A stretch of 64,000 bases of DNA from Demequina flava (GTDB taxonomy: Bacteria > Actinomycetota > Actinomycetes > Actinomycetales > Demequinaceae): assembly GCF_000975035.1 (NCBI RefSeq), contig NZ_BBRA01000001.1, positions 1,590,838-1,654,837 on the forward strand. The letters are read 5' to 3'. Every line of letters begins with the position of its first letter. Position 1 is the stretch's first letter. A program made the position numbers and the translations under genes. This document shows, piece by piece, positions 1-64,000 of this stretch. Under the pieces are notes generated by a model. It worked only from the letters and a program-made list of their open reading frames with translations. It did no database searches and had not been told where the DNA came from.

Positions 1-1
1 G

Positions 2-52
2 AACGTCGGCTGGGATGTGCCTGCAACCCAGGTGTCGGGCTCGCGCCCGTAG
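2..52 (+). CDS. Possible C-terminal end of a truncated gene
   Basis: The second forward frame is open from the window edge to a TAG at 50-52 and reads NVGWDVPATQVSGSRP. A complete hairpin follows 11 bases later, as expected of a gene end. If real, this gene converges on the GntR-type regulator gene that ends at 132. Too little is present to name a family. The other two forward frames read less like protein. This is inferred from context only. Confidence 0.3.
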   Translation, partial: NVGWDVPATQVSGSRP

Positions 53-63
53 CGCGTAGGGGA

Positions 64-95
64 GGGCCGATGCTGGGGTTACCCGAGCATCGGCC
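64..95. terminator. Palindromic GGGCCGATGC element, probable bidirectional terminator
   Basis: GGCCGATGCT (65-74) pairs with AGCATCGGCC (86-95) around an 11-base loop that contains GGGGTTACCC. The hairpin lies 3' of the regulator gene (stop at 132 on the minus strand) and just after the putative forward gene end at 52. It is one of four complete inverted pairs of the dispersed repeat in this window. Confidence 0.7.
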
Positions 96-131
96 AAAGA
101 CGAGACCTTGTGAAGGCCCGCGAAAACCTGA

Positions 132-5537: not shown

Positions 5538-5782
5538 TCTCCCGCAGTGACCACTGTCGTGTCCGGTGTGCGTTGTCCTCTCCTCACAACGAACCGGTCA
5601 CGAGCCGACGCGCCGCACACAGTGCCCTCTACGGGCGCAGTGGGCGCCGCGTCGTTGTCGTCTCTGGTGGGATGACTTGCGATGGGTTCGCGTGATCCGG
5701 GCCGATGCTGGGGACGCGTGAGGCCTCGCACGGCAGGTAGAGTGGTCCTCACCAACCAACGCAGCCACGTGAAGGGGGTCCG
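5538..5782. other. Gap with a single repeat copy and the glmU promoter region
   Basis: No gene is visible. A weak stem (CGTTGT...ACAACG, about 5563-5583) follows the permease gene. A single copy of the dispersed repeat, GGGCCGATGCTGGGG, lies at 5699-5713. TAGAGT at 5738-5743 is a plausible -10 for glmU, without a convincing -35. The ribosome site GAAGGGGG lies at 5771-5778. Confidence 0.5.
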
Positions 5783-8360: not shown

Positions 8361-8394
8361 GGGCCGATGCTTGGGGTTACCCAAGCATCGGCCC
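8361..8394. terminator. Perfect palindromic repeat element, bidirectional terminator
   Basis: GGGCCGATGCTTGGG (8361-8375), loop GTTA, then CCCAAGCATCGGCCC (8380-8394): a perfect 15-bp stem followed by TTTCGC. It separates the convergent genes prs and PAP2 phosphatase. It is the best-preserved inverted pair of the dispersed GGGCCGATGC family. A weaker GGCGGC/GCCGCC stem lies just upstream (8335-8352). Confidence 0.85.
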
Positions 8395-10890: not shown

Positions 10891-11466
10891 GTGAGCGCAT
10901 TGATCGTGGGGCTGGGAAATCCAGGCGACGAGTACGCGGGTACCCGCCACAACATCGGCCAGATGGTCGCCGACGAGTTGGCCTCCCGTTCGGGCACGGC
11001 GCTTGGCGTCCACAGGAAGACCCGCACGCGCGCCGCGACTGTCCGGATTGGCGGCGGCCCCGCGACCGTGGCGGTGCCTATGTCCTACATGAACGTCTCC
11101 GGCGGCCCGGTGTCGGCGCTCGCGAAGTATCAGTCCGTTGAGCCGCAGGACGTCATCGTGGTCCACGACGATCTCGACATCCCCTTTGGCGCCGTCAAGC
11201 TCAAGCGTGGTGGCGGCTCCGGTGGCCACAACGGTCTGAAGGACATCACCAAGGCCCTTGGAGGTCCCGATTATGTGCGTGTGCGCGTGGGAGTAGGGCG
11301 CCCGCCGGGCCGCATGGAGGCGGCCGCGTTTGTGCTTAAGCCATTCTCGGCGGCCGAGCGTAAAGAGCTAGATCTGTTGATCTCGCTCGCGGCCGATGCT
11401 GCCGAGGCCGTCGTCGTCGACGGGCTTGAGTCGGCGCAGCAGGAGTTCCACTCGCCGCGTGCGTGA
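10891..11466 (+). CDS. pth: Peptidyl-tRNA hydrolase
   Basis: A 191-residue esterase that frees tRNA from peptidyl-tRNAs dropped by stalled ribosomes. The catalytic set is visible: N10 in VGLGNPG, H20 in GTRHNIG, the Asn of [10 protein letters not shown] near 68, and the Asp of [11 protein letters not shown] near 92. Length and order match the bacterial family. The start is GTG 10891 with GAAAGGGA upstream. It follows rplY but after a terminator, so it may have its own promoter (a TA-rich CTAAGGGCTAACG precedes the ribosome site). Confidence 0.96.
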
Positions 11467-11611: not shown

Positions 11612-12349
11612 ATGACCGCTCAGTGGACCATTCCTCCAGCCTCCAGCCGCACGTACGGTGCCGCACTGTTTGATCTCGATGGGGTGCTGACTCCCACGGC
11701 CGAGGTGCACATGAAGGCCTGGGCCGCCATGTTCACCGAGTACTTCACGCGTCACGGCATCACGCCGGCCTATACCGACCATGACTACTACGCCTACGTC
11801 GACGGCAAGCCGCGTTACGACGGAGTCGACGCTTGCCTGCGCTCTCGCGGCGTTGAACTGCCCTGGGGCGACCCGAGCGACGCGCCAGGCGCGGAGACCG
11901 TGTGCGGTATCGGCAACGTGAAGAACGACGCGTTCATGGCAGTGCTGAATGCAGAGGGTGTGGCGCCGTATCCGGGGTCCGCGCGCTTGGTGCAGCACTT
12001 GCGGTCGATCGGCGTGCCAGTCGCGGTCGTGTCGAGTTCACGCAACGCGCCGCAGGTTCTTGCCGCCGCGGGCCTCGCGCCCCAGTTCGAGGTTGTCGTG
12101 GACGGCAACACCGTGGCGACCGAGGGGATTGCCGGAAAGCCCGCGCCAGACATGTTTGAGCTGGCAGCCAAGCGCCTAGGAGTCGCTACGGCCGATGCTG
12201 TGGTCATCGAAGATGCTCACTCCGGTGTGCAGGCCGGTGCAGCAGGCGACTTTGCTCTCGTGGTCGGGGTAGACCGGGGCGCAGGAGCGCAGGCGCTGCT
12301 CGACAGCGGCGCTGAGATCGTAGTGAACGACCTTGAGGAGCTGATGTGA
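11612..12349 (+). CDS. HAD-family hydrolase, beta-phosphoglucomutase-like
   Basis: 245 residues of subfamily IA HAD fold. Motif I FDLDGVLTP (D21 nucleophile, D23 acid/base), motif II VSSSRNAP, motif III Lys in GKPAPDMF and motif IV IEDAHSGVQAG are all present, with a helical cap between residues 30 and 110. Because it overlaps a GH65 phosphorylase gene by four bases, the likely role is conversion of the beta-glucose 1-phosphate released by that enzyme to glucose 6-phosphate (beta-phosphoglucomutase). The alternative is a sugar-phosphate phosphatase. The pairing of these two families is well established for maltose, trehalose and kojibiose use. Confidence 0.85.
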   Translation: MTAQWTIPPASSRTYGAALFDLDGVLTPTAEVHMKAWAAMFTEYFTRHGITPAYTDHDYYAYVDGKPRYDGVDACLRSRGVELPWGDPSDAPGAETVCGIGNVKNDAFMAVLNAEGVAPYPGSARLVQHLRSIGVPVAVVSSSRNAPQVLAAAGLAPQFEVVVDGNTVATEGIAGKPAPDMFELAAKRLGVATADAVVIEDAHSGVQAGAAGDFALVVGVDRGAGAQALLDSGAEIVVNDLEELM

Positions 12350-14904
12350 TGAAGGCCGCCCAGCCACGCGGATTCGACGAGTTGCACCCCGACTACATGG
12401 ACCGGCTCCGTTTTCCGGTGGATCCGTGGCGCCTGGTGGAGACGGAGTTCTCGAAGGACGACCTCGGTGTCACCGAGACGCTGTTCGCCGTCGCCAACGG
12501 CTACTTGGGGCTACGTGGCAACGTCGAGGACGGGCACGATGCCCACGCCCATGGAACGTTCATCAACGGCTTCCACGAGACGTGGGACATCCGGCACGCG
12601 GAAGAGGCCTACGGCTTCGCCCGCACCGGACAAACAATCGCCAATGTGCCGGACTCCAAGATCATCCGCCTGTACGTCAACGACGAGCCGCTGTTGCTGT
12701 CGACGGCAGACCTGATCGAATACGAGCGCGTCCTCGACATGCGCGAGGGCATCCTCACCCGCGAGCTTTTGTGGCGCACGCCATCCGGAAACCGTGTGCG
12801 GGTGCGCTCACAGCGCATGGTGTCGTTCTCGCAGCGTCACCTCGCCGTGATGACGTACGAGGTCGAGCTGCTCGACAAGGCCGCGCCCATCGCCGTCTCT
12901 TCGCAGCTGCTTAACCGCCAGGCAGGACTCGACGAGTACCGCGCGACGCCGGTCCGCGAAGGCATGGCGGACCCCCGCAAGGCGAACAACCTCGAGGACC
13001 GCGTCCTGGAGCCGCGCATCCAGCACGCCGACGATGGCCGCGTGGTCCTTGGGTACAAGGCCGCGAATTCTGGGATGACTCTCGCTGCTGCGATGGAGCA
13101 CACCATTGACTTCGACGGTGAGTACGACCGGGTGGACGAGGTAGACCCGGACTACGCCAAGCACGTCTTCCGTGCGCGTGCCGAACCAGGTCAGGTCTTC
13201 ACGCTGACCAAGGTCGTCAGCTATCACACGTCCCGCCTGGTGCCCCCGCGCGAGCTCGCGGACCGCTGCCACCGCACCCTAGACCGCGTCCGGCAAGAGG
13301 GTGTCGAGAAGCAGTTCGAGCAGCAGCGCGAGTGGATGAAGGACTTCTGGAACCGCTCGGACGTCGAGATCGAGGGTCACGACGACACGCAGCAGGCGGT
13401 GAGGTGGAATCTGTTCCAGCTCGCCCAGGCTGCTGCCCGTGGGGACGGCTTTGGGGTTCCCGCGAAGGGGCTCACTGGTTCTGGTTACGGCGGTCACTAC
13501 TTCTGGGACTCCGAGGTTTACGTGATGCCGTTCTTCACGTACACCTCACCGATCATCGCTCGCAACGCGCTGCGCTATCGCTACCAGATGCTCCCCGCGG
13601 CACGCCGCCGCGCGGGCGAACTCGCCCAGCACGGCGCTCTCTATCCGTGGCGCACCATCAACGGCGAGGAAGCATCGGCCTACTACGCCGCGGGCACCGC
13701 GCAGTATCACATCGATGCAGACATCTCTTATGCGATCGACAAGTACGTGCGCGCCACCGGGGACGACGAGTTCCTGGCTCGCAACGGCATCGACATCCTG
13801 GTCGAAACCGCGCGTATGTGGGCGGACCTGGGCTTTTGGCGCAAAGTCGAAGGCAAGGGCGAGTCGTTCCGCATCCACGGCGTGACCGGTCCAGACGAGT
13901 ACACGACTGTCGTGAACGACAATCTGTACACGAACGTCATGGCGCGGTTTAACCTGCGCTGTGCAGCATCGGCCGTGCACAAACTTCGGGACCGCTGGCC
14001 CGAGCAGCACGACAAGATGATGGCGCGCCTGAACCTCACGAGCGATGAGGTGGATGAATGGACTCGCGCGGCCGATGGCATGGCCGTGCTGTGGGATGAC
14101 CTTCTCGGGATTCACCCGCAAGACGCACTCTTCAACGAGCGCGAGGTGTGGGATCTGGCGAACACGCCACCGGAGCAGCGTCCGCTGCTGCTGCACTTCC
14201 ACCCGCTGGTGATCTACCGCTTCCAGGTCTTGAAGCAGGCCGACGTTGTCCTCGCGCTGTTCCTGCAAGGTGAGCACTTCACGCCCGAAGAGAAGCGCAA
14301 GGACTTCGAGTACTACGACCCGATCACGACGGGCGACTCGACGCTCTCCGGCGTTGTGCAGTCGATCATCGCGGCCGAGGTTGGCTATCACGAGCTTGCG
14401 CTCAAGTACTTCTGGGACAGCCTCTACGTTGACCTGGGCGATCTGCACGCGAATGCCTCGGACGGCGTGCACACCGCGTCCACGGGCGGCGTGTGGTCAT
14501 CCCTGGTTTACGGCTTTGGTGGCTTCCGCGATTACGGCGACGTGTTGCGGTTCGACCCGCGGCTGCCCGAGGACTGGCAGTCGCTGACCTTCCGCCTCAC
14601 GCAGCGCGGCACGCGCGTCAAGGTGACGGTGCGTGAGGCGTCGATCTCGTTCACCATCGAGGAAGGGCCTGGTCTCACCGTGGACGTCCGCGGCGAGCGC
14701 CACAGCCTCACGCAGTTGTCCGAGCTCGAGGTGCCACTCGACGGCCAGGGGGAGCGCATCCCCGGCGAGCCCGATGCCGCGGCCTTCCACGGCACCGTGC
14801 GCGCAGACGGCACGGTCATTACGCCGTCGTTGCCTTCTTCCGTGACGGAGACCACCGAGATGGAACTTCCGGAAGAGAATCAGCTACGCACCGAGGGAAG
14901 CTAG
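12346..14904 (+). CDS. Glycoside hydrolase family 65 disaccharide phosphorylase
   Basis: An 852-residue cytosolic phosphorylase. The N-terminal beta-sandwich (about 1-300, including GFHETWDIRHAEEAYGF) is followed by the (alpha/alpha)6 barrel (about 340-720) holding the general acid Glu in VTGPDEYTTVVND near residue 518 and the phosphate-site region HTASTGGVWSS near 706, then a C-terminal beta domain. GH65 enzymes cleave alpha-glucosidic disaccharides with phosphate to glucose plus beta-glucose 1-phosphate. Whether this one prefers maltose, trehalose, kojibiose or nigerose cannot be decided by eye. It starts at GTG 12346 or the adjacent ATG 12349, overlapping the HAD stop, so translation is coupled. 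Confidence 0.93.
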   Translation: MMKAAQPRGFDELHPDYMDRLRFPVDPWRLVETEFSKDDLGVTETLFAVANGYLGLRGNVEDGHDAHAHGTFINGFHETWDIRHAEEAYGFARTGQTIANVPDSKIIRLYVNDEPLLLSTADLIEYERVLDMREGILTRELLWRTPSGNRVRVRSQRMVSFSQRHLAVMTYEVELLDKAAPIAVSSQLLNRQAGLDEYRATPVREGMADPRKANNLEDRVLEPRIQHADDGRVVLGYKAANSGMTLAAAMEHTIDFDGEYDRVDEVDPDYAKHVFRARAEPGQVFTLTKVVSYHTSRLVPPRELADRCHRTLDRVRQEGVEKQFEQQREWMKDFWNRSDVEIEGHDDTQQAVRWNLFQLAQAAARGDGFGVPAKGLTGSGYGGHYFWDSEVYVMPFFTYTSPIIARNALRYRYQMLPAARRRAGELAQHGALYPWRTINGEEASAYYAAGTAQYHIDADISYAIDKYVRATGDDEFLARNGIDILVETARMWADLGFWRKVEGKGESFRIHGVTGPDEYTTVVNDNLYTNVMARFNLRCAASAVHKLRDRWPEQHDKMMARLNLTSDEVDEWTRAADGMAVLWDDLLGIHPQDALFNEREVWDLANTPPEQRPLLLHFHPLVIYRFQVLKQADVVLALFLQGEHFTPEEKRKDFEYYDPITTGDSTLSGVVQSIIAAEVGYHELALKYFWDSLYVDLGDLHANASDGVHTASTGGVWSSLVYGFGGFRDYGDVLRFDPRLPEDWQSLTFRLTQRGTRVKVTVREASISFTIEEGPGLTVDVRGERHSLTQLSELEVPLDGQGERIPGEPDAAAFHGTVRADGTVITPSLPSSVTETTEMELPEENQLRTEGS

Positions 14905-17657: not shown

Positions 17658-18095
17658 CTACGTTGACTCGGCTAGTGCCCAGTCTGCGAAGTCAAAACCG
17701 GGGCTCACGACGCAACTGACGAGCACTTCCTGCTCGCCGCCGAGGTCTGCCGCCTGCCACACACCCGCCGGAACCACGGCCATCGGAACATGCCCAGCTG
17801 CCAGGTCTGGGCCCAAACGCACGGTGGTCACGGCATCGGCCGGACTGTCCCCATCGCCACCAAAGTGAAGCTCGAGCGTGCCGGGCCCGTGCCACAGCCA
17901 CAGTTCATCGGATGTGACGACGTGCCAGGCCGAACGCTCGCCCGGTGTCAGCAGGTAGTGGATGCACGTCGCGGCGGGGCGGATGCCACCGGCGGTGTCG
18001 ACGGGCACGGTTCCCGTCCACATGCGCTTGAACCAGCCGCCCTCAGGGTGCGGTTCCAGGTCAAGGGCCGATGCCGTGGCCGGGGTCTCGCTCAC
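17658..18095 (-). CDS. Cupin-5 (DUF985) family protein
   Basis: A 145-residue single-domain beta-barrel. It has the DUF985 features EPHPEGGWFKR near the start, TCIHYLLTPGERSAWH in the core, and VVPAGVWQAAD with a conserved VSPGFDF close to the C-terminus. The biochemical role of the family is not settled. Its ATG overlaps the stop of the amidohydrolase gene (ATGA), so it belongs to that operon. The N-terminal residues (ATASALDLEP) are encoded by a copy of GGGCCGATGC at 18065-18074. Confidence 0.85.
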   Translation of the reverse strand: MSETPATASALDLEPHPEGGWFKRMWTGTVPVDTAGGIRPAATCIHYLLTPGERSAWHVVTSDELWLWHGPGTLELHFGGDGDSPADAVTTVRLGPDLAAGHVPMAVVPAGVWQAADLGGEQEVLVSCVVSPGFDFADWALAEST

Positions 18096-41394: not shown

Positions 41395-41395
41395 A

Positions 41396-41415
41396 AACCT
41401 ACGATACCGTAGGTT
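41396..41415. promoter_or_regulatory. Perfect inverted repeat at the haemolysin III/uppS divergent promoter
   Basis: AACCTACG-ATAC-CGTAGGTT, 8-4-8, begins one base before the haemolysin III start codon. On that strand TATCGT within it would be a -10 for a leaderless message, so a bound protein would block transcription. A related TACCGTAG recurs near 41425. Confidence 0.55.
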
Positions 41416-41469
41416 ATCCCGTCGGGGTACCGTAGTCCCAGCCGGATTCGCCGATGGAGAGGACAGCAC

Positions 41470-42234: not shown

Positions 42235-42252
42235 GGCGAGAGCCCAGCCGCA

Positions 42253-42285
42253 GCATCGGCCCTCAGCCAGCCCCAGCATCGTCCC
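42253..42285. repeat. Two tandem dispersed-repeat copies after uppS
   Basis: GCATCGGCCC (42253-42262) and a one-mismatch copy GCATCGTCCC (42276-42285), same orientation, just 3' of the uppS stop. Confidence 0.65.
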
Positions 42286-42290
42286 TGCCC

Positions 42291-42343
42291 CAGTAGGGGG
42301 TTTGGGTCACTTTTGGGCGAAATGTGACTCAAACCCCCTACTG
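42291..42343. repeat. Long inverted repeat between uppS and phoH
   Basis: CAGTAGGGGGTTTGGGTCAC (42291-42310) pairs with 42324-42343 at 19 of 20 positions (the exception a G-T pair) around 13 bases. It is followed by GAAGCG rather than a T-run. It may end uppS transcription or be a small mobile palindrome. Together with the phoH leader it fills the 305-base gap between the genes. Confidence 0.7.
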
Positions 42344-42373
42344 AAGCGCGCCCCCCGTACCCCCGCGCCCGGG

Positions 42374-42539
42374 CGTGTGACGAACAGATGAAATGTGGCG
42401 TGTCGCGCTCGACACACCCGTAGGCAGGCGTAGCGTCACACACGTGGGAAACCAACTCACCTGCACTGTCCAAGTGCGGGAATGACATCGATCGCCGTGG
42501 AGCGATCGGCGCTCCGCGGCCTGACCCCGGGAGCGCTAC
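42374..42539 (+). promoter_or_regulatory. Highly structured phoH leader
   Basis: Several nested stems precede phoH: GTGTGACG (42375-42382) with CGTCACAC (42434-42441), enclosing GTGTCG-CGCT-CGACAC; then CCTGCACT/AGTGCGGG (about 42460-42480); CGATCGC/GCGATCG (about 42488-42507); and GCGCTCC pairing with GGAGCGC (about 42510-42537). The last stem covers GGGAG, the phoH ribosome site. This suggests control of translation by RNA folding. It matches no riboswitch class that I recognise. Confidence 0.5.
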
Positions 42540-43904: not shown

Positions 43905-43925
43905 CACCCCGCCTGAGCCACGTAC

Positions 43926-43974
43926 AAAGGCGAGGGCCGATGCCAGCGTTACCGCGGCATTGGCCCTCGCCTTT
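43926..43974. terminator. Palindromic GGGCCGATGC element, bidirectional terminator
   Basis: AAAGGCGAGGGCCGATGCC (43926-43944) pairs over 19 positions (one G-T) with 43956-43974, followed by T-rich TGTCTT. The loop is AGCGTTACCGC. The stem has an A-run on the left and a T-run on the right, a classical two-way intrinsic terminator between convergent phoH and siderophore-interacting-protein genes. Confidence 0.85.
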
Positions 43975-43990
43975 TGTCTTGTGCTGCTGG

Positions 43991-44830
43991 TTACAGCCCC
44001 ACCTCTTGCAGGAAGGGCTCGAGCTCGATCCAGTTGACCTCATCGGGACGGGACTCGTCCCAGATTTCCGCGTAGCGGGCCTGCTGCTCGGGCGTCATGG
44101 CGAGCCACTTCTTGAGGCGTTCTTCCTGGTTGAAATGCCAGTAGCCGACGATCCGGTAGAAGCTGTGGTGACGCATCCAGTAGGTGCGGATGTGCTTGCG
44201 TGCGGCGCGCGAGGCGCTGGTCTCACACGCGACCCAGATGTAGGTGTCGTCGCTGGGCTCGTCGAGGCTCTCCATGCGCGCCACGATCTCGCACAGGGCC
44301 CGGCCGTTGCCGGCCACGACCCAGGTGACGTCAACGTCTGCGGCGGAAGCCAGCTCGATCTCATCGGCGGCGTCGAGCACCTCGATGAACACCTGAAATG
44401 ACTCGTCCTCCGAGGCTTCCTCGAGGATGCGCGCCACTGCAGGGATGCCGGTCGCGTCGGCGAACAGCATGCGCTTGGTGGTGCCCTCGGGTGGACCGTA
44501 GTAGCCGCGGGCGCCGCTCACCGCGACAACCTGGCCCACCTGACAGTCGCGCGCCCAGGACGCACCCAGGCCATGACCGTGCGTGACCACGTCGACCAGC
44601 ATGGTCTGCGCTGCCGGATCCCAGCGGCGGATCGTGTAGTGCCGGGCGATGACGTGATCGTCCTCCCAGCCGTCCGCAGCATCGGGGCCGGGAATGTGGA
44701 TGTGGACAAACTCATCGGGTTTGCCGGTGCTTTCCCACTCGCGCAAGGAGTCGCCGGCGAGGGTGACGCGGCGGAGGTTGGGTGACAGGTCACGGGCGTC
44801 AACGACGCTCACGCGGTACGAGTCGGTCAT
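43991..44830 (-). CDS. Siderophore-interacting protein (flavin-dependent ferric-siderophore reductase family)
   Basis: 279 residues. The N-terminal FAD-binding barrel has the flavin motif ARHYTIRRWD (R-x-Y-T) and the GASWARDCQVGQ loop. The C-terminal SIP domain has FADATGIPAVARILEE, VTWVVAGNGRAL, VACETSASRAARKHIRTYW and GYWHFNQEE. These enzymes reduce ferric siderophores in the cytoplasm to release iron. It is the last gene of the siderophore uptake operon. The start is ATG 44830 with GAAGGAG upstream. Confidence 0.94.
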   Translation of the reverse strand: MTDSYRVSVVDARDLSPNLRRVTLAGDSLREWESTGKPDEFVHIHIPGPDAADGWEDDHVIARHYTIRRWDPAAQTMLVDVVTHGHGLGASWARDCQVGQVVAVSGARGYYGPPEGTTKRMLFADATGIPAVARILEEASEDESFQVFIEVLDAADEIELASAADVDVTWVVAGNGRALCEIVARMESLDEPSDDTYIWVACETSASRAARKHIRTYWMRHHSFYRIVGYWHFNQEERLKKWLAMTPEQQARYAEIWDESRPDEVNWIELEPFLQEVGL

Positions 44831-44855
44831 GGTCACTCCTTCACTGCTGGGGGGA

Positions 44856-44889
44856 GGGCCGATGCTGTGGTTGCCGGAGCGGGGCATCG
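44856..44889. repeat. Degenerate repeat copy in the siderophore operon
   Basis: GGGCCGATGC at 44856-44865, with a decayed partner GCATCG at 44884-44889. Only six bases would pair. It sits between the siderophore-binding-protein and SIP genes. Confidence 0.6.
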
Positions 44890-44900
44890 ATCCCTTGGGC

Positions 44901-44930
44901 GGGAGGCGCCGAGCGAAGCCGGCGCCTCCC
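44901..44930 (-). terminator. Hairpin after the siderophore-binding-protein gene
   Basis: GGGAGGCGCC (44901-44910) and GGCGCCTCCC (44921-44930), a perfect 10-bp stem with a 10-base loop, seven bases past the binding-protein stop on the minus strand. Possible partial terminator lowering SIP expression relative to the binding protein. Confidence 0.65.
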
Positions 44931-44936
44931 AAGTGG

Positions 44937-46055
44937 TTAGGAACCTGCGGTGGCGTCGGCGTACTCGACGACCTCGGTGGCGGGGTCGCCATCGAGAGCC
45001 TGCTCGAGCATCGGCACGAACGCCGCAAGCGAGTACTCAATTGCCGAGGGGGAGTTCGCGAAGAAAGCGCCCTCGAGGGTCGGGTCGGTGAGCCAGACGT
45101 TGCCGCCGGTCTCCGTGGTGTTCAGCGAGTCGAACAGCGGCAGCTCCTGGAGGGAATCCACTGCGCTCGGGTCAGTGGCGACCTGCCACACGACCGAGTC
45201 GAGGTCGCCCAGGACGTCGAGCTGCTCGGCGCTGATCTGCAGCCATGCCTCATCGGCGCCCTCGATCGAGGAGGTGTTGAGGCCGAGGTTCGCGAGGAAC
45301 TGGTTGCGGGTGTCGTTGGCCGCGTACACGTACGCCTGGCCCTCGTAGTAACCGCCGACCTGCGAGGTGAGGCCTTCCCACTCGGGGTGCGCTTCGCGGA
45401 CCTCGGTGAACTGTGCGTCGATGTCGGCGATGATCTCTTCGGCCTTGTCGGTGGTGCCGGTGGCCTGCGCGAGGAGGGTGAGCTCGTCGGCCAGGGACAC
45501 GCCCCACTCGACGGTCTCGTTGCCCTCGGAGTCCGTTGCAGGACGGGTCACCACAGGGGCGATGCCGGACAGCAGGTCGTACTCTTCCTGCGTCATGGTG
45601 TGGCCCGGGTAGGTCGCGACGATCAGGTCGGGGGAGAAGGCCGCGATAGCTTCGGCGTCATAGGTGGTTGCGCCGGGCTCGAAGGTCTCGGGCTCAGCGC
45701 CAGCTGCGATGCGGTCCTCTTCGGCCCAGGGGCCGGTGCCGTTGTCGTAGCCCTGCCAGGAGACAGGCACGGCGACCGGGGCGACGCCCAGCGCGTAGAG
45801 GTACTCGTGCTCGTGAGAGCCGAGCGTCACGATGCTCTGTGGCTCGGACTCGATGGTGACCTCACCCATGGTGGTGTCAAGAGTCACGGGGAAGCCTGCC
45901 GACTCGGAAGCCTCTGCTTCGTCAGTGGCGGCGGCGGTGGCTTCTGCGGACTCTTCAGTCTCGGACGAGTCCGACGACGAGCATGCCGCGAGGGTGAGTG
46001 CGGCAACCGCGGTCATCGACACGGCGGCCAGGCGGCGCGAGGTGCGCAGCTTCAT
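44937..46055 (-). CDS. Ferric-siderophore-binding lipoprotein (FecB/FhuD class)
   Basis: 372 residues. A signal with lipobox LAAC (Cys25), a Ser/Glu/Ala-rich linker, then the periplasmic-binding-protein type III fold with PQSIVTLGSHEHEYLYALGV near the start and SPDLIVATYPGH in the first lobe. It captures ferric siderophore outside the membrane for the two FecCD permeases encoded upstream. It begins 33 bases after the 161-residue unknown protein's stop. Confidence 0.94.
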   Translation of the reverse strand: MKLRTSRRLAAVSMTAVAALTLAACSSSDSSETEESAEATAAATDEAEASESAGFPVTLDTTMGEVTIESEPQSIVTLGSHEHEYLYALGVAPVAVPVSWQGYDNGTGPWAEEDRIAAGAEPETFEPGATTYDAEAIAAFSPDLIVATYPGHTMTQEEYDLLSGIAPVVTRPATDSEGNETVEWGVSLADELTLLAQATGTTDKAEEIIADIDAQFTEVREAHPEWEGLTSQVGGYYEGQAYVYAANDTRNQFLANLGLNTSSIEGADEAWLQISAEQLDVLGDLDSVVWQVATDPSAVDSLQELPLFDSLNTTETGGNVWLTDPTLEGAFFANSPSAIEYSLAAFVPMLEQALDGDPATEVVEYADATAGS

Positions 46056-46574: not shown

Positions 46575-47365
46575 TTGGTGCCTCCTGGACCGTGGGCGGG
46601 GACGACGATGGGCGTGCCGGTCACGGGGTCCGGGAGCACGCGCGCATCGAGGTGGAAGACGTCGCGGATGAGGTCCTCGGTGAAGACCTCGGTGGGGTCG
46701 CCTGCCGCGGCGACTTCGCCGTCGCTCATGGCGATGACGTGGTGCGCGTAGCGGGCCGCTTGGTGCAGGTCGTGGACCACCATGACGATAGTGCGGGCCT
46801 GACGCTGGTTGAGCCGGTGCAGGAGGTCGAGGACCTCGTACTGGTGAGAGATGTCCAGGTACGTGGTGGGCTCATCCAGGAGCATGAGCGGCGTGTCCTG
46901 TGCGAGGGACATCGCGATCCACGCGCGCTGGCGCTGTCCGCCGGAGAGCTCGTCGACCACTGAGTCTTGAATCGACGTGAGGTTCGTCGAGTGCAGGGCA
47001 CTGAGGACAGCCGTCTCATCCGTGCTGGACCATGGGCGCAGCACCTTCTGATGGGGCGTGCGGCCGCGAGCGACGAGTTCTTTGACCGTGATGCCAGCGG
47101 GCGCGTTGGGTGCCTGGGGAAGGAGGCCGATGCGGCGGGCGACTTCGCGGGTACCCACCGTGTGGATGTTGACGCCATCGAGGATGACGGACCCGGACGT
47201 GGGCGGCAGCAGCCGGACGAGGGCCCGCAGGAGCGTCGACTTGCCACAGCCGTTGGGGCCCACGATCGCGGTGATCTTGCCGTCAGGGACGGAGACGTTG
47301 ACGCCGCGGACGATGGGCTGGTCGCCGTAGCCAATGAAGGCTTGCTTGGCCTCGAGTCTGCTCAT
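46571..47365 (-). CDS. Ferric-siderophore ABC transporter ATP-binding protein (FecE/FepC class)
   Basis: 264 residues. Walker A GPNGCGKSTLLRAL (near residue 36), Q-loop in IGLLPQAPNAP, signature DELSGGQRQRAWIAMSLAQD, Walker B MLLLDEPTTYLD and switch His in VVHDLHQAARY mark the FecE class. The start is ATG 47365, preceded by GAGGAGG and overlapping the permease stop by four bases. Longer in-frame extensions lie in the permease gene and are noise. Confidence 0.95.
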   Translation of the reverse strand: MSRLEAKQAFIGYGDQPIVRGVNVSVPDGKITAIVGPNGCGKSTLLRALVRLLPPTSGSVILDGVNIHTVGTREVARRIGLLPQAPNAPAGITVKELVARGRTPHQKVLRPWSSTDETAVLSALHSTNLTSIQDSVVDELSGGQRQRAWIAMSLAQDTPLMLLDEPTTYLDISHQYEVLDLLHRLNQRQARTIVMVVHDLHQAARYAHHVIAMSDGEVAAAGDPTEVFTEDLIRDVFHLDARVLPDPVTGTPIVVPAHGPGGTK

Positions 47366-49554: not shown

Positions 49555-49587
49555 GGGCCGATGCTCCGGTCGCGGATGCAGTCCGCG
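49555..49587. repeat. Single dispersed-repeat copy and small hairpin after hemA
   Basis: GGGCCGATGC at 49555-49564, followed by CGCGGA-TGCAG-TCCGCG (49571-49587), just 3' of hemA on the minus strand. The small hairpin may help terminate hemA. Confidence 0.55.
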
Positions 49588-49591: not shown

Positions 49592-50899
49592 TCAGGCGGT
49601 GCCGTGGGAGGTTGGCCAAGGGGAGTCGATCTCGTCTGCCGGGCAGGCGTCCTGCGGCATGTCCACGTCGATGCCGTAAAGCGCGCGGATTGCTCCCAGG
49701 TAGCGGTCTTCCTCGCCAGCCTGGGCAAGCTCACGCGCACGCACCGTAGGCGTGTGGAGCAACGTCTTGGCAAAGCGGCGCAGGGACTGTTCCACGGCAT
49801 CGGCCTCAGCGACTGCTGCTTCGGAGGACCCGGCTGCCGGGCGCACGCGCCCCAGTTCCTTTTCGAGAATCCCGAAGACGTGCTCGCGCAGGGCGACCAC
49901 TGCGGGATCGAGGGTGCGGGCGCTCTCCCCGTCGCCAAACCGGGCAACTGCGTGCGCGACGATGGCGCGTGCCGCCTCGATGGAGGACACCGACTCCTCA
50001 GGAGCTTGCGTTCCCACGGACTCGAGGTTGATGACGTGCACGCCGCGCATTTGCTCGACGCCGGGCGCTACATCGCGGTGAAGCGCAAGGTCCACGAGCG
50101 TGAGGTCGCGGGTGGCGTCGCCGCGTGCGGAGGACACCATGGTGGGGGTGAGGACGATCGACTCGCCGCCGGAACATGCGAGCACCACGTCGACGGAGCC
50201 GAGCGCTTCGCGGAGTCCTTCACCGTCGAGCGACTCAATGCCGTGACGGGCACCGAACTCGGCGCCGCGACCGGACGGCGAATACACGCCAACAATGTCG
50301 ACACCGCGCGCCAGGAGCGAGCCCACGCCCGTCTCGGCAAGTGCGCCGGTGCCAATGACGAGCGCCTTGGCGCCGTTCCAGTTCACTGTCGCGCTGGCGA
50401 GGTCGAAGGCCACCGACACGACTGAGCGCCCAGAGGTACCCAGTCCGGTAGACGACGCGACGACACGGGATGTGCGCAACGCCGACTGGAACAGCCGGTC
50501 CAGACGCGGGGAGACATGCTGGCCGGCCTGCGCGTCGATGTGTGCGCGCCGCACCTGGCCGGAAATCTCGCGTTCTCCCACGACCATGGACTCGAGGCCC
50601 GTCGCGACGGACATGAGGTGGTGGACGGCGTCATCGCCTTCGTAAGTGGCAAGCGCCTGGGCGATCGCGTCGCGGTCCAAAGACGTGGTTTCGACGAGCG
50701 CATCGATCACCGCTTGGCGGCCCGCATCGGCGTCATCCGCTTCGAGGTACACCTCGAAGCGGTTGCACGTGGGCAGAACCACGGCACCGCTGATGGGGGA
50801 TGTGCCCTCCACGATCGCGCTTCCCAACGACTCTGAACCAACACTGAGTTGCTCCAGGACGGTGAGATCGCGGTTGTGGTGACTGGCGACGAGTGACAT
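49592..50899 (-). CDS. hemA: Glutamyl-tRNA reductase
   Basis: 435 residues. It makes glutamate-1-semialdehyde from Glu-tRNA, the first step of C5 haem synthesis. The nucleophile Cys lies in VLPTCNRFEVYLE (near 45), followed by GLESMVVGEREISGQV, the NADPH domain with ALVIGTGALAETG, and a helical dimerisation tail. The start is ATG 50899 with GAGGGG upstream. It is divergent from hemE. The partners usually next to hemA (hemC, hemD, hemB, hemL) are not in the window. Confidence 0.96.
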   Translation of the reverse strand: MSLVASHHNRDLTVLEQLSVGSESLGSAIVEGTSPISGAVVLPTCNRFEVYLEADDADAGRQAVIDALVETTSLDRDAIAQALATYEGDDAVHHLMSVATGLESMVVGEREISGQVRRAHIDAQAGQHVSPRLDRLFQSALRTSRVVASSTGLGTSGRSVVSVAFDLASATVNWNGAKALVIGTGALAETGVGSLLARGVDIVGVYSPSGRGAEFGARHGIESLDGEGLREALGSVDVVLACSGGESIVLTPTMVSSARGDATRDLTLVDLALHRDVAPGVEQMRGVHVINLESVGTQAPEESVSSIEAARAIVAHAVARFGDGESARTLDPAVVALREHVFGILEKELGRVRPAAGSSEAAVAEADAVEQSLRRFAKTLLHTPTVRARELAQAGEEDRYLGAIRALYGIDVDMPQDACPADEIDSPWPTSHGTA

Positions 50900-52043: not shown

Positions 52044-53322
52044 GCGCCGCAATTGGCTCGTGATCGGCGCGGGCCCGGCGGGTCTGCTTGCCGCACGCCG
52101 CCTGGCGAAGGCCGGTCACGACGTGCGCATCCTCGAAGCAGAGGACGAGCCAGGCGGCCGGGTTTCGCGTATCCGCGTCGACGGGCTCGACATGGACGCC
52201 GGCGCCGAGTCTTTCGCGACCCGTGGCGGTTACGTCGAGGAACTAGCGCGGGAGCTGGGCCTGGGCGAACGGCTGGTGACGCCGGCGGGCGGGCCTGCGT
52301 GGATTGTCAGTGAAGAGCGGTCGTTTGCGATGCCGAAGGCCGGTTGGCTCGGCGTGCCGACGTCGTCGCTTGCCCCGGACGTGATCAAGGCTCTGGGCTT
52401 GTCCGGCGCGTTGCGTGCCGCCGTCGAGCGCTTCATGCCTCCGGAGGACGTCGCTCCCGATGACTCCTTGGGCAAGGTTGCCCGGCGCCGCCTCGGCGAC
52501 GCCGCGGTGGACCGACTCATCCAGCCGGTCGTGAGCGGGATCTTCTCCCGTCCGGTCGATGACCTGCGGATCGATGCCGCGGCGTCGGGATTCGCCGCCG
52601 AGGTCTCCGAGATGGGGCTCGTGCGAGCGGCCGCGCATCGCAGGTCGGTTGCCCCAGCGGGTTCCGCAGTGATGGGTATCGACGGCGGGATCTTCGTGCT
52701 CACCCAGGCACTTGCGGCCGATGCCCGGGCTCACGGGGTGCGGATCGAGACCGAGCAGGTGGTCACCGCGCTCACCCGGAAGGATTCGCAGTGGGAGGTC
52801 TACACCGAGACCGAAAAGTGGAGTGCGGACGAGGTTGTCGTCGCAGCGCCCCGACCGGTTGCTGCAGCCCTGGTGCCGCAACTTGAGCGAGCTCCCGATA
52901 AGCAGGTTGCGCTGGTGACATTGTCGCTTGACGCTCCCGAGCTCGATTCGCAGCCGCGTGGGTCCGGCGTCCTGGCCGTGGGAGATGTGACGCGCGCTAA
53001 GGCGCTCACGCATGCCAACGCGAAATGGGCGTGGGTGGCGCGCGAGGCTCCCACGCGCAACCTGGTGCGCCTGTCCTACAACGTCAGTTCTCGCGAGGAC
53101 CTCAGCGGGTACGCGGTGGCCGATGCCTCGCGGCTGCTGGGCGTGAAGCTCCACGACAAGCAGGTGCGGGACCTCGTGCAGGTGACGTGGCACGACGCCG
53201 CTCCCACACGCGCAGGCGACCGTGAACCGGCGCCCGGTCTGCACCTCGTCGGAGCGGCGGCAGGCTTCTCGGGGCTGGCGGCGATCGTGGACGACGACGC
53301 GCGCTCGACGTTGGGCGAGTGA
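52036..53322 (+). CDS. cgoX: Coproporphyrinogen III oxidase (protoporphyrinogen oxidase HemY family)
   Basis: 428 residues of FAD-dependent oxidase. The dinucleotide motif VIGAGPAGLLAARRLAKAGHD and EAEDEPGGRVSR lie at the N-terminus; the C-terminal FAD segment is LHLVGAAAGFSGLAAIVDD. Because hemQ follows, this HemY-type enzyme is expected to oxidise coproporphyrinogen III to coproporphyrin III (CgoX) rather than act on protoporphyrinogen. The start is GTG 52036 within the hemE stop region. Two in-frame GGCCGATGC copies lie inside. Confidence 0.92.
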   Translation: MAERRNWLVIGAGPAGLLAARRLAKAGHDVRILEAEDEPGGRVSRIRVDGLDMDAGAESFATRGGYVEELARELGLGERLVTPAGGPAWIVSEERSFAMPKAGWLGVPTSSLAPDVIKALGLSGALRAAVERFMPPEDVAPDDSLGKVARRRLGDAAVDRLIQPVVSGIFSRPVDDLRIDAAASGFAAEVSEMGLVRAAAHRRSVAPAGSAVMGIDGGIFVLTQALAADARAHGVRIETEQVVTALTRKDSQWEVYTETEKWSADEVVVAAPRPVAAALVPQLERAPDKQVALVTLSLDAPELDSQPRGSGVLAVGDVTRAKALTHANAKWAWVAREAPTRNLVRLSYNVSSREDLSGYAVADASRLLGVKLHDKQVRDLVQVTWHDAAPTRAGDREPAPGLHLVGAAAGFSGLAAIVDDDARSTLGE

Positions 53323-53379
53323 TTCCGGGCATTTCCACCCGGGACCAAAGTCCCACACGTGACCCGCTTCACGGGGCTG

Positions 53380-53396
53380 AACCCCAGCATCGGCCC
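53380..53396. repeat. Single dispersed-repeat copy between cgoX and hemQ
   Basis: Read on the minus strand: GGGCCGATGCTGGGGTT, a long match to the element's consensus. A short GGGG/CCCC stem precedes it. It lies in the 139-base cgoX-hemQ gap, the widest in the hem operon. Confidence 0.65.
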
Positions 53397-55344: not shown

Positions 55345-55387
55345 GGCATCGGCCCTCGTCCTGATTCTCAGGCGCGGGGTCGATGTC
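55345..55387. terminator. Inside-out repeat element, probable terminator between hemH and LCP genes
   Basis: The copy GGTAACCCGGGCATCGGCCC (55336-55355) starts one base past the hemH stop. GGCATCGGCCC (55345-55355) can pair with GGGTCGATGTC (55377-55387) through 11 pairs including two G-T, around 21 bases. The two half-copies point the opposite way from the other palindromes. The genes on each side converge. Confidence 0.6.
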
Positions 55388-59502: not shown

Positions 59503-62500
59503 ATGAGTCCAGCGCGCCTCGCTGTGCGCGCGGTCGTGGTCAGTGACGGGCTCCAAGCCCGCCTCGCCGCAGTGCTCAATTCCGTTGTCGCTCAAGACCC
59601 CGCACCCGACTCCATCGATTTGGTGATGGTGGGCGGAGCTGCCGCCCCCGAGAACCTGCCGTCCCCGGCCATCACGGTTCATCACTCAGACGCTCCTGAC
59701 TTTTCCCGCGCCGTTGACGCTGCGATCTCGCAGTACCCGGCCGCGCCCGGAGAACTGCTGTGGTTGCTTCACGACGACTCCGCGCCACTTCCCGGGGCCC
59801 TCGGCCTTCAGCTCGCCACCGCTCGCAAGCGCCATCGCGCCGGCGTGATCGGTGCCAGCCAGGTGCAATGGGACGACCCCACCCGGCTGATCGGGATGGG
59901 GGCCACCATGACTCGTTGGGGCGCGCGGCGACTCAACCTCGTAGAAGAGGGAGACGTCGATCAAGGGCAGTACGACGATCTCGATGATGTCCTGTCCGTA
60001 TCCATGGCCGGCGCGCTCGTGCGCCGGGAGCTGTGGGACGAGCTCGGCGGTCTCGACCCCGCGTATCGCGGTTGGTCGGACAGCGCGGACTTCTGCCGTC
60101 GGGCCTGGCGCGCTCAGTGGGACGTCGTTGTGGTTCCACGAGCGAAGGTTCGGCACGCCCAGCACCGACTGCACGGTGTGCGCGGCGGTCACGCAAGCCG
60201 GGTGTCGACCTACAGCGCCCGGCGTGCATCGGAGTGGTTCCAAGCGCTGGTGCATGGCCCGTGGTTGATGATCCTCCCGCTCGTGCTGGGGTCGGTGGTG
60301 TCCTCGCTGGGCCGGGTATTGCTGCGTATCGCGCAAAACGATCCTCGTATGGCGGCGGCCGATGCTTTGGTGCCGTTTCGCGTGTTGGCGACACTTCATC
60401 GCGTGCCCGGGGCGCGCATGCGAGTCCGCCGAGCAGGCTTGCGGGGCGCCGCCGCCCGCGCGATTGAGCGTCCGTTGCTGGCGAGTCCGCGGCAGGTGCG
60501 TCATGAGACGCGGTCTCGCGAGTGGGGCGCCTACGAGAGCTGGCGTGCCGCGTCCACACCGCCAGAACTCATTCGCGCGGAACTGGCGACCGCCGCGCGC
60601 CGGCGCCGTTCAACGCTGATCCTCGTCGCCGTCGTTGCCGCAGCCGTTTCCGTGATGCGGCATCCGGATTGGTTCGCGGGCGCTGTGACGGGACGCATGC
60701 TCGCCTCCGACGCCCTCGGGATCACAGACTTGGGTTGGCACGACTTGTGGCAGCGCGGTCTCAGCGGGTGGACTGAGCAGGCGCTCGGCGCCCCTTCCAT
60801 CGACGGTGGCTTGTCGCTTGTGCTGTTGCCGTTGGCGTTCTTCCCCGGCGGGCTTGCCGTTGGGCTCGTGGTGGTCATGGGTCTTGCTCCTTTGTGGGCG
60901 GCACTTGGCGCGTGGGCCGCGACGGGAACGCTGACCCGGTCCCGCACCGTGCGCGCGCTGTCTGCCCTGGTATACGCACTAGCGCCAGTTGCGGTCATCG
61001 CTGGGGACGACGGTCGCGTAGCCGCCGTGCTGGTGCACCTGGCACTGCCATGGGTCGTCTTTGGTGTGATGCGTGGAGGCGGCTGGCACGCCGGTGAGCG
61101 CATTGGCGAAGGCGACGAGTTCCCCGAGCGTCCCACCGCGTCTCCGAGCGCGGCGGCAGGGGCTGCGGTTGCACTGACGGTCGTCGTGATTGCCGCCCCC
61201 CTGATGGTGATCCCCGTCGTCGTCGGCTGCGCCTTGCTTGGCGCGCTCGCCCGGTCAGTGCGTAAGCGCATGTGGGCGATGGCTCTTCCCCCGCTCGCAG
61301 TGGCGCTCCCTGGACTGTTCGCGGTCATCGCGCAAGGAACCGTCACAGCTGACGCCTGGAGTGTGCTCGCTCGCGAGCCGGGGCCATCCCTGAACTCTGC
61401 GGCCTCCCCCCTCGACCTGTTGCTGTCCGCGGCGGCTACCGCCGCGCCGGAGTGGCTGACGTGGACGTCGATGCTCGTCGTACCGGTGGCCCTCGGAGCC
61501 GCCGCAATCGCCACCGTCGTAGGCCGCCGCTGGGTGCTGTCGTCCGTGGGGGTTGCCGTCGCGATTGTCGGCGTTGCCATTGCGCAACTGTCCGCGTCGA
61601 CGGTGGTGTCGCCCGATGACGGACTCGGTACCGGAGCCGCCAACGGCTGGGCGGGGCCCGGCCTCTCCGTGACGCTGATGGGCGTACTGATCACGGTCGC
61701 GGGTGCCTCCCGCGGTTGGTGGGACCGCGGCGAAGGCCGCGCACGCACGGCGACCCGCACGGTGCAGATCGTGGCGGCATCGGCTGTCGGCGTGATCGTG
61801 GCAGGACACGGCATCGCCGTCGCCTGGCCCACGAGCGATCGCGATGGCGTGAGCTCGGTCTCGACGGACGTCATCCCGCTTGTGGCCGCCCTCGAACTCG
61901 ACCAGCCCACTCGGCAGCGCGTTCTCGTGTTGTCGGACTCGGGAGACGCCATCACCGGCACGGTGATGTCGACCGACGGAACTGAGGTCCTGAGCACCGC
62001 GGGCGAGCTCGTGGGCGACGGCCGGCCCGCAGCGCGGACGACGGGCACGCCGGTCGTCACCGTCGCGGCGCTCAACGAGGCCGTCGCGGGAGTCATTGGC
62101 GGCGCCGAGGGTGCGCCGGATGACCTCGCTGAGTGGGGCATTGGCGTCATCGTTGCCGCCCCAGGTGCGGAGCGTGCTGCCAGCGCGCTCGCCCAATCCG
62201 ACGCGCTGCAACTATTGGGATCCTCGGACCGCGGAACGACATGGAAGGTCGCGCGTTCCGAGTCCGATGCCCCGGTCGCGCGCATGTGGGTCGAGGCTGA
62301 CGGAGCCGTGAGCGTGGTCCCGATGGGGCGTACCGGAGGCGAGCTCGACCTCGAGGCGCCGGTGACCGGCACTGTCGTGATGGCAGCATCGGCCGACGAG
62401 AAGTGGCACGCCACGCTCAACGGAGCCGCACTGGAGCGCGTCGAAGACCCATTGGGACGTGTGGCCTTCGCAGTCGACGGTGAAGGGACCCTTGTCGTCA

Positions 62501-62616
62501 CCTACGACGACGCCATGCACACCGCGTGGTGGTGGGCCGGACTCATTGCACTCGCATGGGCATTGCTGGGTTCCATCCCGCTACCGACACGACTCTTTAG
62601 GGAGGCCCGCGCATGA
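59503..62616 (+). CDS. Large membrane glycosyltransferase family 2 protein
   Basis: 1037 residues. The N-terminal GT2-like domain (about 1-250) has the acidic motif LWLLHDDSAPLPGAL and AYRGWSDSADFCRRAW. About twelve membrane helices follow (about 250-300 and 370-770), then an extracytoplasmic beta-rich domain to the end with a last helix (AWWWAGLIALAWALL). Such proteins are encoded next to whiB2 in actinobacteria and are thought to build wall or surface glycans; the substrate is unknown. It overlaps the DUF5719 gene by four bases. Confidence 0.9.
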   Translation: MSPARLAVRAVVVSDGLQARLAAVLNSVVAQDPAPDSIDLVMVGGAAAPENLPSPAITVHHSDAPDFSRAVDAAISQYPAAPGELLWLLHDDSAPLPGALGLQLATARKRHRAGVIGASQVQWDDPTRLIGMGATMTRWGARRLNLVEEGDVDQGQYDDLDDVLSVSMAGALVRRELWDELGGLDPAYRGWSDSADFCRRAWRAQWDVVVVPRAKVRHAQHRLHGVRGGHASRVSTYSARRASEWFQALVHGPWLMILPLVLGSVVSSLGRVLLRIAQNDPRMAAADALVPFRVLATLHRVPGARMRVRRAGLRGAAARAIERPLLASPRQVRHETRSREWGAYESWRAASTPPELIRAELATAARRRRSTLILVAVVAAAVSVMRHPDWFAGAVTGRMLASDALGITDLGWHDLWQRGLSGWTEQALGAPSIDGGLSLVLLPLAFFPGGLAVGLVVVMGLAPLWAALGAWAATGTLTRSRTVRALSALVYALAPVAVIAGDDGRVAAVLVHLALPWVVFGVMRGGGWHAGERIGEGDEFPERPTASPSAAAGAAVALTVVVIAAPLMVIPVVVGCALLGALARSVRKRMWAMALPPLAVALPGLFAVIAQGTVTADAWSVLAREPGPSLNSAASPLDLLLSAAATAAPEWLTWTSMLVVPVALGAAAIATVVGRRWVLSSVGVAVAIVGVAIAQLSASTVVSPDDGLGTGAANGWAGPGLSVTLMGVLITVAGASRGWWDRGEGRARTATRTVQIVAASAVGVIVAGHGIAVAWPTSDRDGVSSVSTDVIPLVAALELDQPTRQRVLVLSDSGDAITGTVMSTDGTEVLSTAGELVGDGRPAARTTGTPVVTVAALNEAVAGVIGGAEGAPDDLAEWGIGVIVAAPGAERAASALAQSDALQLLGSSDRGTTWKVARSESDAPVARMWVEADGAVSVVPMGRTGGELDLEAPVTGTVVMAASADEKWHATLNGAALERVEDPLGRVAFAVDGEGTLVVTYDDAMHTAWWWAGLIALAWALLGSIPLPTRLFREARA

Positions 62617-63926
62617 AGTGGACCGCGGCTATCCCCGTTGCACTCGCGGCCGTCGCCGTCGTGGGGGTGTCGGTCATCGACCTCCCGTCTACCGAGTCCG
62701 GCCCTGATCCGGTCGCCACGACGCTCGCCGTCAGCCCCTCGGACCAGCCTGCCGTCTGTCCCGGCCCGCTCGAGATTCCCGTCGGAGAAGTCGCCAGCGG
62801 CGACAGCGACCTCGACTCCGGATCTGAAGACCGCGCCCTGTCGGTCTCTCCTGAGCCATCGGAAGACATCGGCGAGGGCAGTGCCGTCGACGCCACCGTG
62901 GCCACGTCGCTAGAGCGAGTGGGTACCGGTGACATCGCGTCCCTCGCGGGACTGACCTGCGCTCCGCCGCGCCAGGACCAGTGGATCGTTGCCGGATCGA
63001 CGGCGCTGGGTTCCAGCGCTCGGGCAGTGCTGGCCAACCCCTCCGCCGCAACCGTCCGGGTGTCGATCACCCTGTACGGACCGGTCAGCCTTGATGGCCA
63101 GGAGTCGTTCACGACCGTGGTGGGTCCGCACTCCCAAGTCTCCGTGCTCGTCGAGAGCATCGAGCCAGAGATGCCGACACTAGCGATGCGCATCCAGGCA
63201 GGCGGTGTGGGAATCACTGCCGCGTTGCAGGACTCACGCCTGGACGGATTTACCGCCGCGGGTAGCGACTGGGCCACGGCATCGGCCTTCGGAACAGAAC
63301 TCGCCGTTCCCGTGGCGGGGCCATCCGATGCCGACGCTCCCGCCGCGCTACGCCTCGTCGCGCCCGAGGACGCCTCCGTGAGCCTCGCGATGGTCGACGA
63401 AGATGGTCGCCGCGAGTGGCTCGACGGCGAGACGCTCAATCTCGAGGCCGGACTTGTCACGGACGTCACCATCCCGGCCGGTGACGCGGGCGCCGTCTTC
63501 GTCTCGTCGGACGTGCCAGTGGCAGCGGCAACGATCGCGAGGACCGTCTACGACATCGAGGACTCGGACCTGAGCGCCGGAGATCTGGCCTGGGTTCCCG
63601 CTCAGTCCGTCGGCGACGCGACCGAGCGTGCGGTCGTGGCTCCCGACGGGGACCTCACTGTGGTGGCTGCGAGCGCGACGTCGGACCGGCTGGTGCTCAC
63701 TGATCAGTCGGGCGCCACCGTCCTTGATGAGCGCGTGTTCGCGGACTCAGCGGCCGTCTTCCCTCTGGATGTGCCGGCGGGCACCCAGGTGACCAGCGCA
63801 TCGGCCGTCACCTGGGCCGTGTCCGTTCGGGACGGAGGCTTCATGACTGCCCTCACCCCACGGGCGCTTGAACGCCTCCCGCAGGAGGTCACGCTCGAGG
63901 CCGGCCCCTACGCAGGAACGCCCTAG
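62613..63926 (+). CDS. DUF5719 family secreted/anchored protein
   Basis: 437 residues. One N-terminal hydrophobic segment (AAIPVALAAVAVVGVSVI) acts as signal or anchor; the rest is an acidic, beta-rich extracytoplasmic domain with repeated Val/Thr/Ser strands (VRVSITLYGPVSLDG, VTDVTIPAGDAGAVFVSS). Function unknown. It is translationally coupled (ATGA) to the large glycosyltransferase gene, as in related genomes, so the two probably act together at the wall. Two repeat 9-mers (63279, 63798) lie within. Confidence 0.85.
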   Translation: MKWTAAIPVALAAVAVVGVSVIDLPSTESGPDPVATTLAVSPSDQPAVCPGPLEIPVGEVASGDSDLDSGSEDRALSVSPEPSEDIGEGSAVDATVATSLERVGTGDIASLAGLTCAPPRQDQWIVAGSTALGSSARAVLANPSAATVRVSITLYGPVSLDGQESFTTVVGPHSQVSVLVESIEPEMPTLAMRIQAGGVGITAALQDSRLDGFTAAGSDWATASAFGTELAVPVAGPSDADAPAALRLVAPEDASVSLAMVDEDGRREWLDGETLNLEAGLVTDVTIPAGDAGAVFVSSDVPVAAATIARTVYDIEDSDLSAGDLAWVPAQSVGDATERAVVAPDGDLTVVAASATSDRLVLTDQSGATVLDERVFADSAAVFPLDVPAGTQVTSASAVTWAVSVRDGGFMTALTPRALERLPQEVTLEAGPYAGTP

Positions 63927-63938
63927 CCGGGACGGCTC

Positions 63939-64000
63939 AAGCGCCGGACCCGTACTCCGGGTCAATCTCTTCGGGCGTGCGCCCCACGAGGTGCGCGAGG
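63939..64000 (-). CDS. C-terminal end of a gene cut by the window
   Basis: On the minus strand the frame reads LAHLVGRTPEEIDPEYGSGA then TGA (63939-63941). It converges on the DUF5719 gene with a 12-base gap. Too short to assign a family. Confidence 0.6.

Follow-up and report, generated by a model that had tools for sequence, protein, structure and literature searches.

A dispersed, lineage-specific tag in Demequina genomes as a likely DNA uptake sequence

A nine-base word in the window and the genome

We analysed a 64-kb stretch of the genome of Demequina flava (Micrococcales, Actinomycetota), here called the window, in which the nine-base word GGCCGATGC, hereafter the tag, recurs inside and between genes. 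Counting both strands, the window holds 39 exact copies, slightly more than the approximately 36 reported in a preliminary description, against a mean of 2.21 and a maximum of 7 in dinucleotide shuffles (n = 100). The 10-mer GGGCCGATGC occurs 19 times, exactly as had been claimed, against 0.54 in shuffles, and 12 places match the 20-mer GGGCCGATGCTGGGGTTACC with three mismatches or fewer, against none in shuffles; its single exact copy lies at 64–83. The strong over-representation extends to the whole genome (2,546,965 bases in three contigs, approximately 2.55 Mb), where the tag is found 1,261 times (626 forward and 635 reverse), or 495 times per Mb, against 73 times (40 forward and 33 reverse) for the same pattern read backwards as a control. 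Among 55 genomes of other genera, the count ranges from 9 to 376 copies, with a maximum density of approximately 115 per Mb (in genome G083). A search of 84,980 species genomes for the inverted-pair pattern of the tag matched 12 stretches, all 12 of them from Demequina.

The copies are distributed along the window on both strands. Cores within predicted genes lie on the forward strand at 11391–11399, 12190–12198, 18066–18074, 19486–19494, 23804–23812, 27155–27163, 29514–29522, 37419–37427, 38097–38105, 47125–47133, 52716–52724 and 53118–53126, and on the reverse strand at 13672–13680, 13966–13974, 17833–17841, 19937–19945, 27468–27476 (a close direct copy of the next), 27486–27494, 37606–37614, 49797–49805, 62386–62394, 63279–63287 and 63798–63806. 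Intergenic cores stand at 5700–5708, 40075–40083, 44857–44865 and 49556–49564 on the forward strand and at 22621–22629, 42253–42261 and 53387–53395 on the reverse strand. Another core, at 60357–60365 (+), falls outside the gene calls within a longer open frame, and one at 55346–55354 (−) separates convergent genes without a strong hairpin. Exact inverted pairs occupy 64–96 (cores 65–73 on the forward and 87–95 on the reverse strand; this pair includes the exact 20-mer), 8361–8394 (cores 8362–8370 and 8385–8393, likewise + and −) and 34936–34968 (cores 34937–34945 and 34959–34967, + and −), the latter two between convergent genes. At 43935–43964, also between convergent genes, a forward core (43935–43943) faces an inverted partner that is one base off and reads GGCATTGGCC on the forward strand. 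The sole tRNA gene in the window, tRNA-Leu (anticodon TAA), lies at 31351–31426 (+).

Shape and arrangement of the tag

In a sample of 21 stretches (464 kb, the window included), the exact core occurs 253 times against 18 expected. Information over 251 copies is held by the nine core bases, then by T at position 10, G at positions 11 to 14 and T at position 15, with weak preferences to about position 19, giving the consensus GGCCGATGC-TGgGGTnacC. Nine extended copies were listed in the preliminary description. Those at 64/65, 34936, 40074, 43934, 53377–53396 and 55336 are among the places within three mismatches of the 20-mer, whereas those at 8361 and 19485 have their second half shifted by one base and that at 5699 matches only through TGGGG. 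The 27 single-base variants of the core have 1 to 33 copies each, and few of them are in clear excess (A at position 1, 31 against 9.4 expected; T at position 9, 28 against 10.3), a sharp edge such as a strict recogniser would leave.

Genes in this sample are the 371 predictions of a codon-score caller rather than a curated annotation, and by that caller, on which the division into coding and intergenic DNA depends, 154 copies lie inside genes and 99 outside. The corresponding densities are 0.40 and 1.21 per kb, three times higher outside genes than inside. The main in-gene frames spell Ala-Asp-Ala (80 copies) and, with the tag reversed, Ala-Ser-Ala (44 copies), tripeptides that are themselves somewhat frequent (211 against 148 expected and 166 against 126 expected, respectively), and the tag might be an artefact of such codon or dipeptide use, the objection that the preliminary description had raised against itself. 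Synonymous codon shuffling within each gene (100 runs), however, retains a mean of 19.9 copies (s.d. 4.1, maximum 28) of the 154 observed, and the threefold density outside predicted genes also speaks against a coding origin. Furthermore, Asp is encoded by the rare codon GAT in 80 of 91 xxG-GCC-Asp-GCn contexts, against 21% across all sample genes, and Ser by TCG in 44 of 46 GCA-Ser-GCC contexts, against 35% overall. The shuffling and the context counts refute a codon or dipeptide artefact, to which we assign practically no probability.

The copies divide 126:127 between the strands, with no heterogeneity over the 21 stretches (P = 0.99), and together with the presence of the tag in genes and gaps this agrees with the distribution originally described. 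Spacing along the genome is near random (variance/mean of 1.29 over twenty 20-kb stretches). Even spread, combined with the conservation in sister species presented below, would fit any genome-wide binding site, and the main rival to a DNA uptake sequence, the reading we favour, is a chromosome-organising, segregation or repair site, to which a nucleoid protein, an FtsK-like protein or a recombination protein would bind and which selection on that function would maintain. KOPS and Chi sites, however, are strand-biased by replication arm, a bias that the tag does not show over the 21 stretches, and matS and parS sites, unlike the tag, are rare and clustered.

Exact inverted pairs number 10 in the 464 kb, involving 20 of the 253 copies. 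Five of these pairs lie between convergent genes, although convergent spacers make up 46 of 244 spacers; of the rest, one separates divergent genes, two fall within predicted genes and two are located where a stretch ends. In the window, the pairs at 8361 and 34936 and the near-exact pair at 43935 are predicted to fold into hairpins of −38.5, −28.5 and −41 kcal/mol (z scores of −7.6, −4.3 and −7.5, respectively), as compared with a z score of −1.6 for the single tag at 55346. A terminator scan of positions 30000–45000, with 8 sites where shuffles give 7.4, was uninformative except for the pair at 34936–34968, which is predicted to be terminator-like on the reverse strand. Paired copies at gene ends, some with strong predicted hairpins, are what a mobile or terminator repeat would show if it were of the repetitive extragenic palindrome/bacterial interspersed mosaic element (REP/BIME) type or the miniature inverted-repeat transposable element type, that is, a cassette spread by a transposase. 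Against palindromic intergenic units of this kind stand the fading of information past approximately 19 bases, the large share of copies within predicted genes and the small share in exact pairs.

Dialects among Demequina genomes

We counted words in 44 whole Demequina genomes, in which G000 denotes the source genome and other G numbers the genomes compared. De novo word counts (for G000, over 500 kb that include a 2-kb overlap of stretches L049 and L086) brought up related but different words in sister genomes, and we refer to the resulting dialects as GGCC (GGCCGATGC), GGAC (GGACGATGCG) and GCCCGAC (GCCCGACGCTG), the first two being assigned above 700 copies per genome. The GGCC dialect comprises 16 of the 44 genomes (718 to 2,018 copies) and the GGAC dialect 15 others (711 to 1,564 copies), with GGACGATGCG numbering 235 in G026 and 10 to 123 in the 28 remaining genomes. 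GCCCGACGCTG occurs 622 times in G009, 164 times in G011 and 0 to 24 times in the other 42. A GG approximately four bases past the core is present in G000, G036, G023/G039, G025 and in the GGAC genomes taken together; it weakens in G014, G009 and G043/G008 and is not seen in G031/G033. De novo searches of G001, G003, G017 and G027 (26–120 kb each) revealed no clear tag. Two stretches of the G017 set overlap, and its false top words stem from a short tandem repeat (unit CCTGTCGTAGGCGTCGG) located near 17251–17340 of L104 and at the same place in L126. As a separate observation, G009 (stretches L061, L088, L096–L101 and L118) contains a second over-represented word, GTTTAGGCA, which is unrelated to the tag and has 11 copies against 0.05–0.23 expected.

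A housekeeping tree (EF-P, AroB and AroC; 22 genomes) unites all 12 of its GGCC genomes in a single clade (support of 92/94) and five GGAC genomes in a second (100/100). The exceptions are the GGAC genome G038, which stands beside G001, a genome below the cut-offs, and the two GCCCGAC genomes, which stand apart from one another. Sister species of Demequina therefore carry at least three dialects that follow phylogeny, with exceptions.

Conservation in sister species, a check proposed in the preliminary description, was assessed by aligning tag sites. In G036, the nearest sister compared, the tag is intact at 17 of 33 aligned sites, whereas random 9-mers are identical in 14% of cases; within the window, the copy at 5700–5708 is unchanged in G036 and G043, and those at 18066–18074 and 38097–38105 are unchanged in G036, G023, G014 and G043. 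Pooling five sisters gave 129 aligned sites: 41 without change, 64 with substitutions alone and 24 with gaps. G025 holds the other-dialect word GGACGATGC at 2 of 18 aligned sites, against 0.2% of random 9-mers, and has it opposite the window copies at 17833–17841 and, with one aligned insertion, 19486–19494. In the reverse comparison, 1 of 12 G025 tags is GGCCGATGC in the source genome. Tags thus appear to be gained and lost chiefly through point changes, with a few seemingly converted in place, although the numbers are small.

These comparisons bear on both remaining alternatives. The gapped sites are compatible with insertion of a mobile cassette, but the 64 substitution-only sites are not what such a cassette would leave, and together with the scarcity of pairs they make the spreading terminator offered in the preliminary description very unlikely. 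Replacement of one dialect by another among sisters is hard to accommodate for the site of a conserved core protein. Given this quick change and the strand symmetry, we disfavour the chromosome-organising site, including the nucleoid-protein site suggested earlier, and regard it as unlikely.

Competence genes, candidate receptors and known uptake systems

The source genome encodes the competence functions that the preliminary description had named as worth seeking. comEA (SLBB plus helix-hairpin-helix) adjoins comEC, dprA is present, and a type IV pilus operon contains pilB, pilT, pilC, pilA, further pilins and pilD, identified by Pfam or motif, along with two genes assigned as pilN and pilO by their position and length, without a Pfam match. 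PilB is found in all 44 genus genomes (partial in three) and ComEC in 28 of the 29 Demequina genomes searched for it (43 of 45 overall), being absent from the incomplete genome G005. In a PilB/PilT/PilC tree of 30 genomes the dialects are mixed, with 5 dialect changes among 27 labelled rows; the housekeeping tree, with which it conflicts, has 3 changes among 20 labelled rows, counts that are not directly comparable as the genome sets differ. The mixing of dialects suggests that the pilus operon has moved, and it seems to have been exchanged between lineages or species. Operon layouts in G000 and 20 sisters (L106–L126) have a second pilin of either approximately 600 or approximately 140 residues. 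Both sizes occur among GGCC genomes, and the idea that the operon pilins set the dialect is unsupported by this or by the mixed tree.

A candidate receptor is a small pilin encoded outside the operon, with a conserved C...H...C end, which we found in 9 of 11 genomes searched. In all nine, this lone pilin lies within approximately 1 kb of a gene for 772 to 775 residues, identified in the three tested as metE, the cobalamin-independent methionine synthase. A profile built from the nine sequences finds matches in 44 of 44 genomes, in some of them only a related operon pilin, and we extracted 29 lone pilins from the genus. The predicted structure (mean predicted local distance difference test score of 82) combines a long N-terminal helix with an end rich in strands; the profile matches Geobacter pilins (E = 4.5 × 10−17), and Foldseek with the model returned no match at E ≤ 0.001. 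The pilin near metE is a candidate receptor for the tag in 29 genomes. A 298-residue protein of the source genome (L041:18782–19678, reverse strand; G000:C3 near 1,038.8 kb) has a transmembrane stretch but lacks a prepilin leader; its C-terminal region is matched by the lone-pilin profile, and larger proteins of many sisters have similar partial matches.

The abundance of GGCCGATGC, its sharp core, its occurrence on both strands and in genes and gaps, its inverted pairs, its dialects and the accompanying pilus and competence genes lead us to conclude that it is a dispersed, lineage-specific Demequina tag and, by likeness to known systems, likely a DNA uptake sequence. Among the functions suggested in the preliminary description, an uptake mark is thus the one we favour. 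A surface pilus receptor would bind the tag, and cells would take in and recombine free DNA of the same dialect more readily than foreign DNA. Alleles that carry tags would be taken up more often and the tags would spread by molecular drive, a change of receptor would lead to a change of dialect, and inverted pairs at gene ends may double as transcription terminators. We infer DNA uptake by this pilus, the molecular drive and the receptor-led dialect change, as well as a bias towards tagged DNA, the last from the likeness to known uptake sequences.

Several observations weigh against this interpretation. The reversed control is exceeded several-fold in some genomes of other genera (227 against 22 in G073; 276 against 58 in G083), which marks it as an imperfect control. 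Within the genus, 11 of the 44 genomes do not reach the dialect cut-offs, and two dialect words abound in G021 (664 and 927 copies). Gaps at aligned sister sites exceed those at random 9-mers (5–9%), and not every change is therefore a point change. Members of the ComEC, PilB and DprA families are present in tag-free control bacteria as well, and comEC is in two pieces in G009 (C1:2039413–2040200) and G026 (C1:423579–424363), although G009 has 622 tags; the split may reflect a frameshift, a stop or a sequencing error. We dropped the notion that a low GGCCGATGC count signals lost competence, as G009, with its split comEC, is rich in another dialect. Dialect is tracked no better by the operon-protein trees or by the lone-pilin tree, which needs 5 dialect changes for 26 labelled rows, than by the species tree, and an N_methyl search found no lone pilin in the tag-rich genomes G036 and G013. 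A lone pilin as the sole receptor in every genome is accordingly unsupported. Finally, our literature search found no report of competence or transformation in Demequina.

We also consider it fairly probable that these labels (GGCCGATGC, GGACGATGCG and GCCCGACGCTG) represent a third origin of uptake sequences, in a genus of Gram-positive Actinomycetota, used according to lineage, read by a surface type IV pilin, dividing the genus into mating groups and converted in place when a lineage switches dialect. Among the matches listed in a search of open-licence papers, excluding preprints, there was no uptake sequence from actinobacteria or Demequina. If the interpretation holds, an uptake-sequence system that does not appear in the literature searched has arisen convergently in a Gram-positive lineage, as a counterpart to the tags of two Gram-negative families. 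Recognition of a cell's own DNA would then be shown to have evolved repeatedly and to be possible without an outer membrane, and a new receptor would await discovery in a genus with several dialects across 44 genomes. Such a set of dialects could test the old question of whether selection favours these tags or biased uptake spreads them, and the tag could open Demequina to genetics.

REP/BIME and HIP1 elements resemble the tag in being short, dispersed and over-represented. The tag, however, is non-palindromic and has dialects, whereas HIP1 is a palindromic octamer and REP/BIME units are longer, palindromic and intergenic. Uptake signal sequences (USS), like the tag, have a core followed by weaker modules and a comparable copy number, about 1,000–2,000 in Haemophilus; the USS modules are A/T-rich tracts, in contrast to the G+C-rich second module GGT-nacC of the tag. 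Like the tag, the Pasteurellaceae USS has a nine-base core, given as AAGTGCGGT in a passage of PMC5031613, but its sequence and host are unrelated to those of the Demequina tag.

The DNA uptake sequence (DUS) of Neisseriaceae is read by the minor pilin ComP, and a type IV pilus is present there too. The DUS is similarly short, abundant and present on both strands, in genes and gaps, with terminator-linked inverted pairs and with several dialects in keeping with the species tree (PMC3630211). The DUS ATGCCGTCTGAA (quoted in PMC5031613) is unrelated in sequence to GGCCGATGC-TGgGGTnacC, which matches neither the DUS nor the USS, and the host of the tag, by contrast, is a Gram-positive actinobacterium, which lacks an outer membrane and in which the lone pilin is a candidate receptor. 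Strong sequence preference among the competent bacteria tested is assigned to two families, Pasteurellaceae and Neisseriaceae, in a passage of PMC7811141, and a passage of PMC5031613 likewise places uptake tags in two families. Another actinobacterium, Micrococcus luteus, is likewise a high-GC Gram-positive with both ComEA and ComEC but differs from Demequina in having Flp/Tad pili without dynamic type IV pili, and the excerpts of the two reports that describe it mention no uptake sequence (PMC12849477 and PMC6370729). Collectively, the features of the tag are hallmarks of the uptake sequences of Neisseriaceae and Pasteurellaceae, and not of REP/BIME, HIP1, Chi or KOPS.

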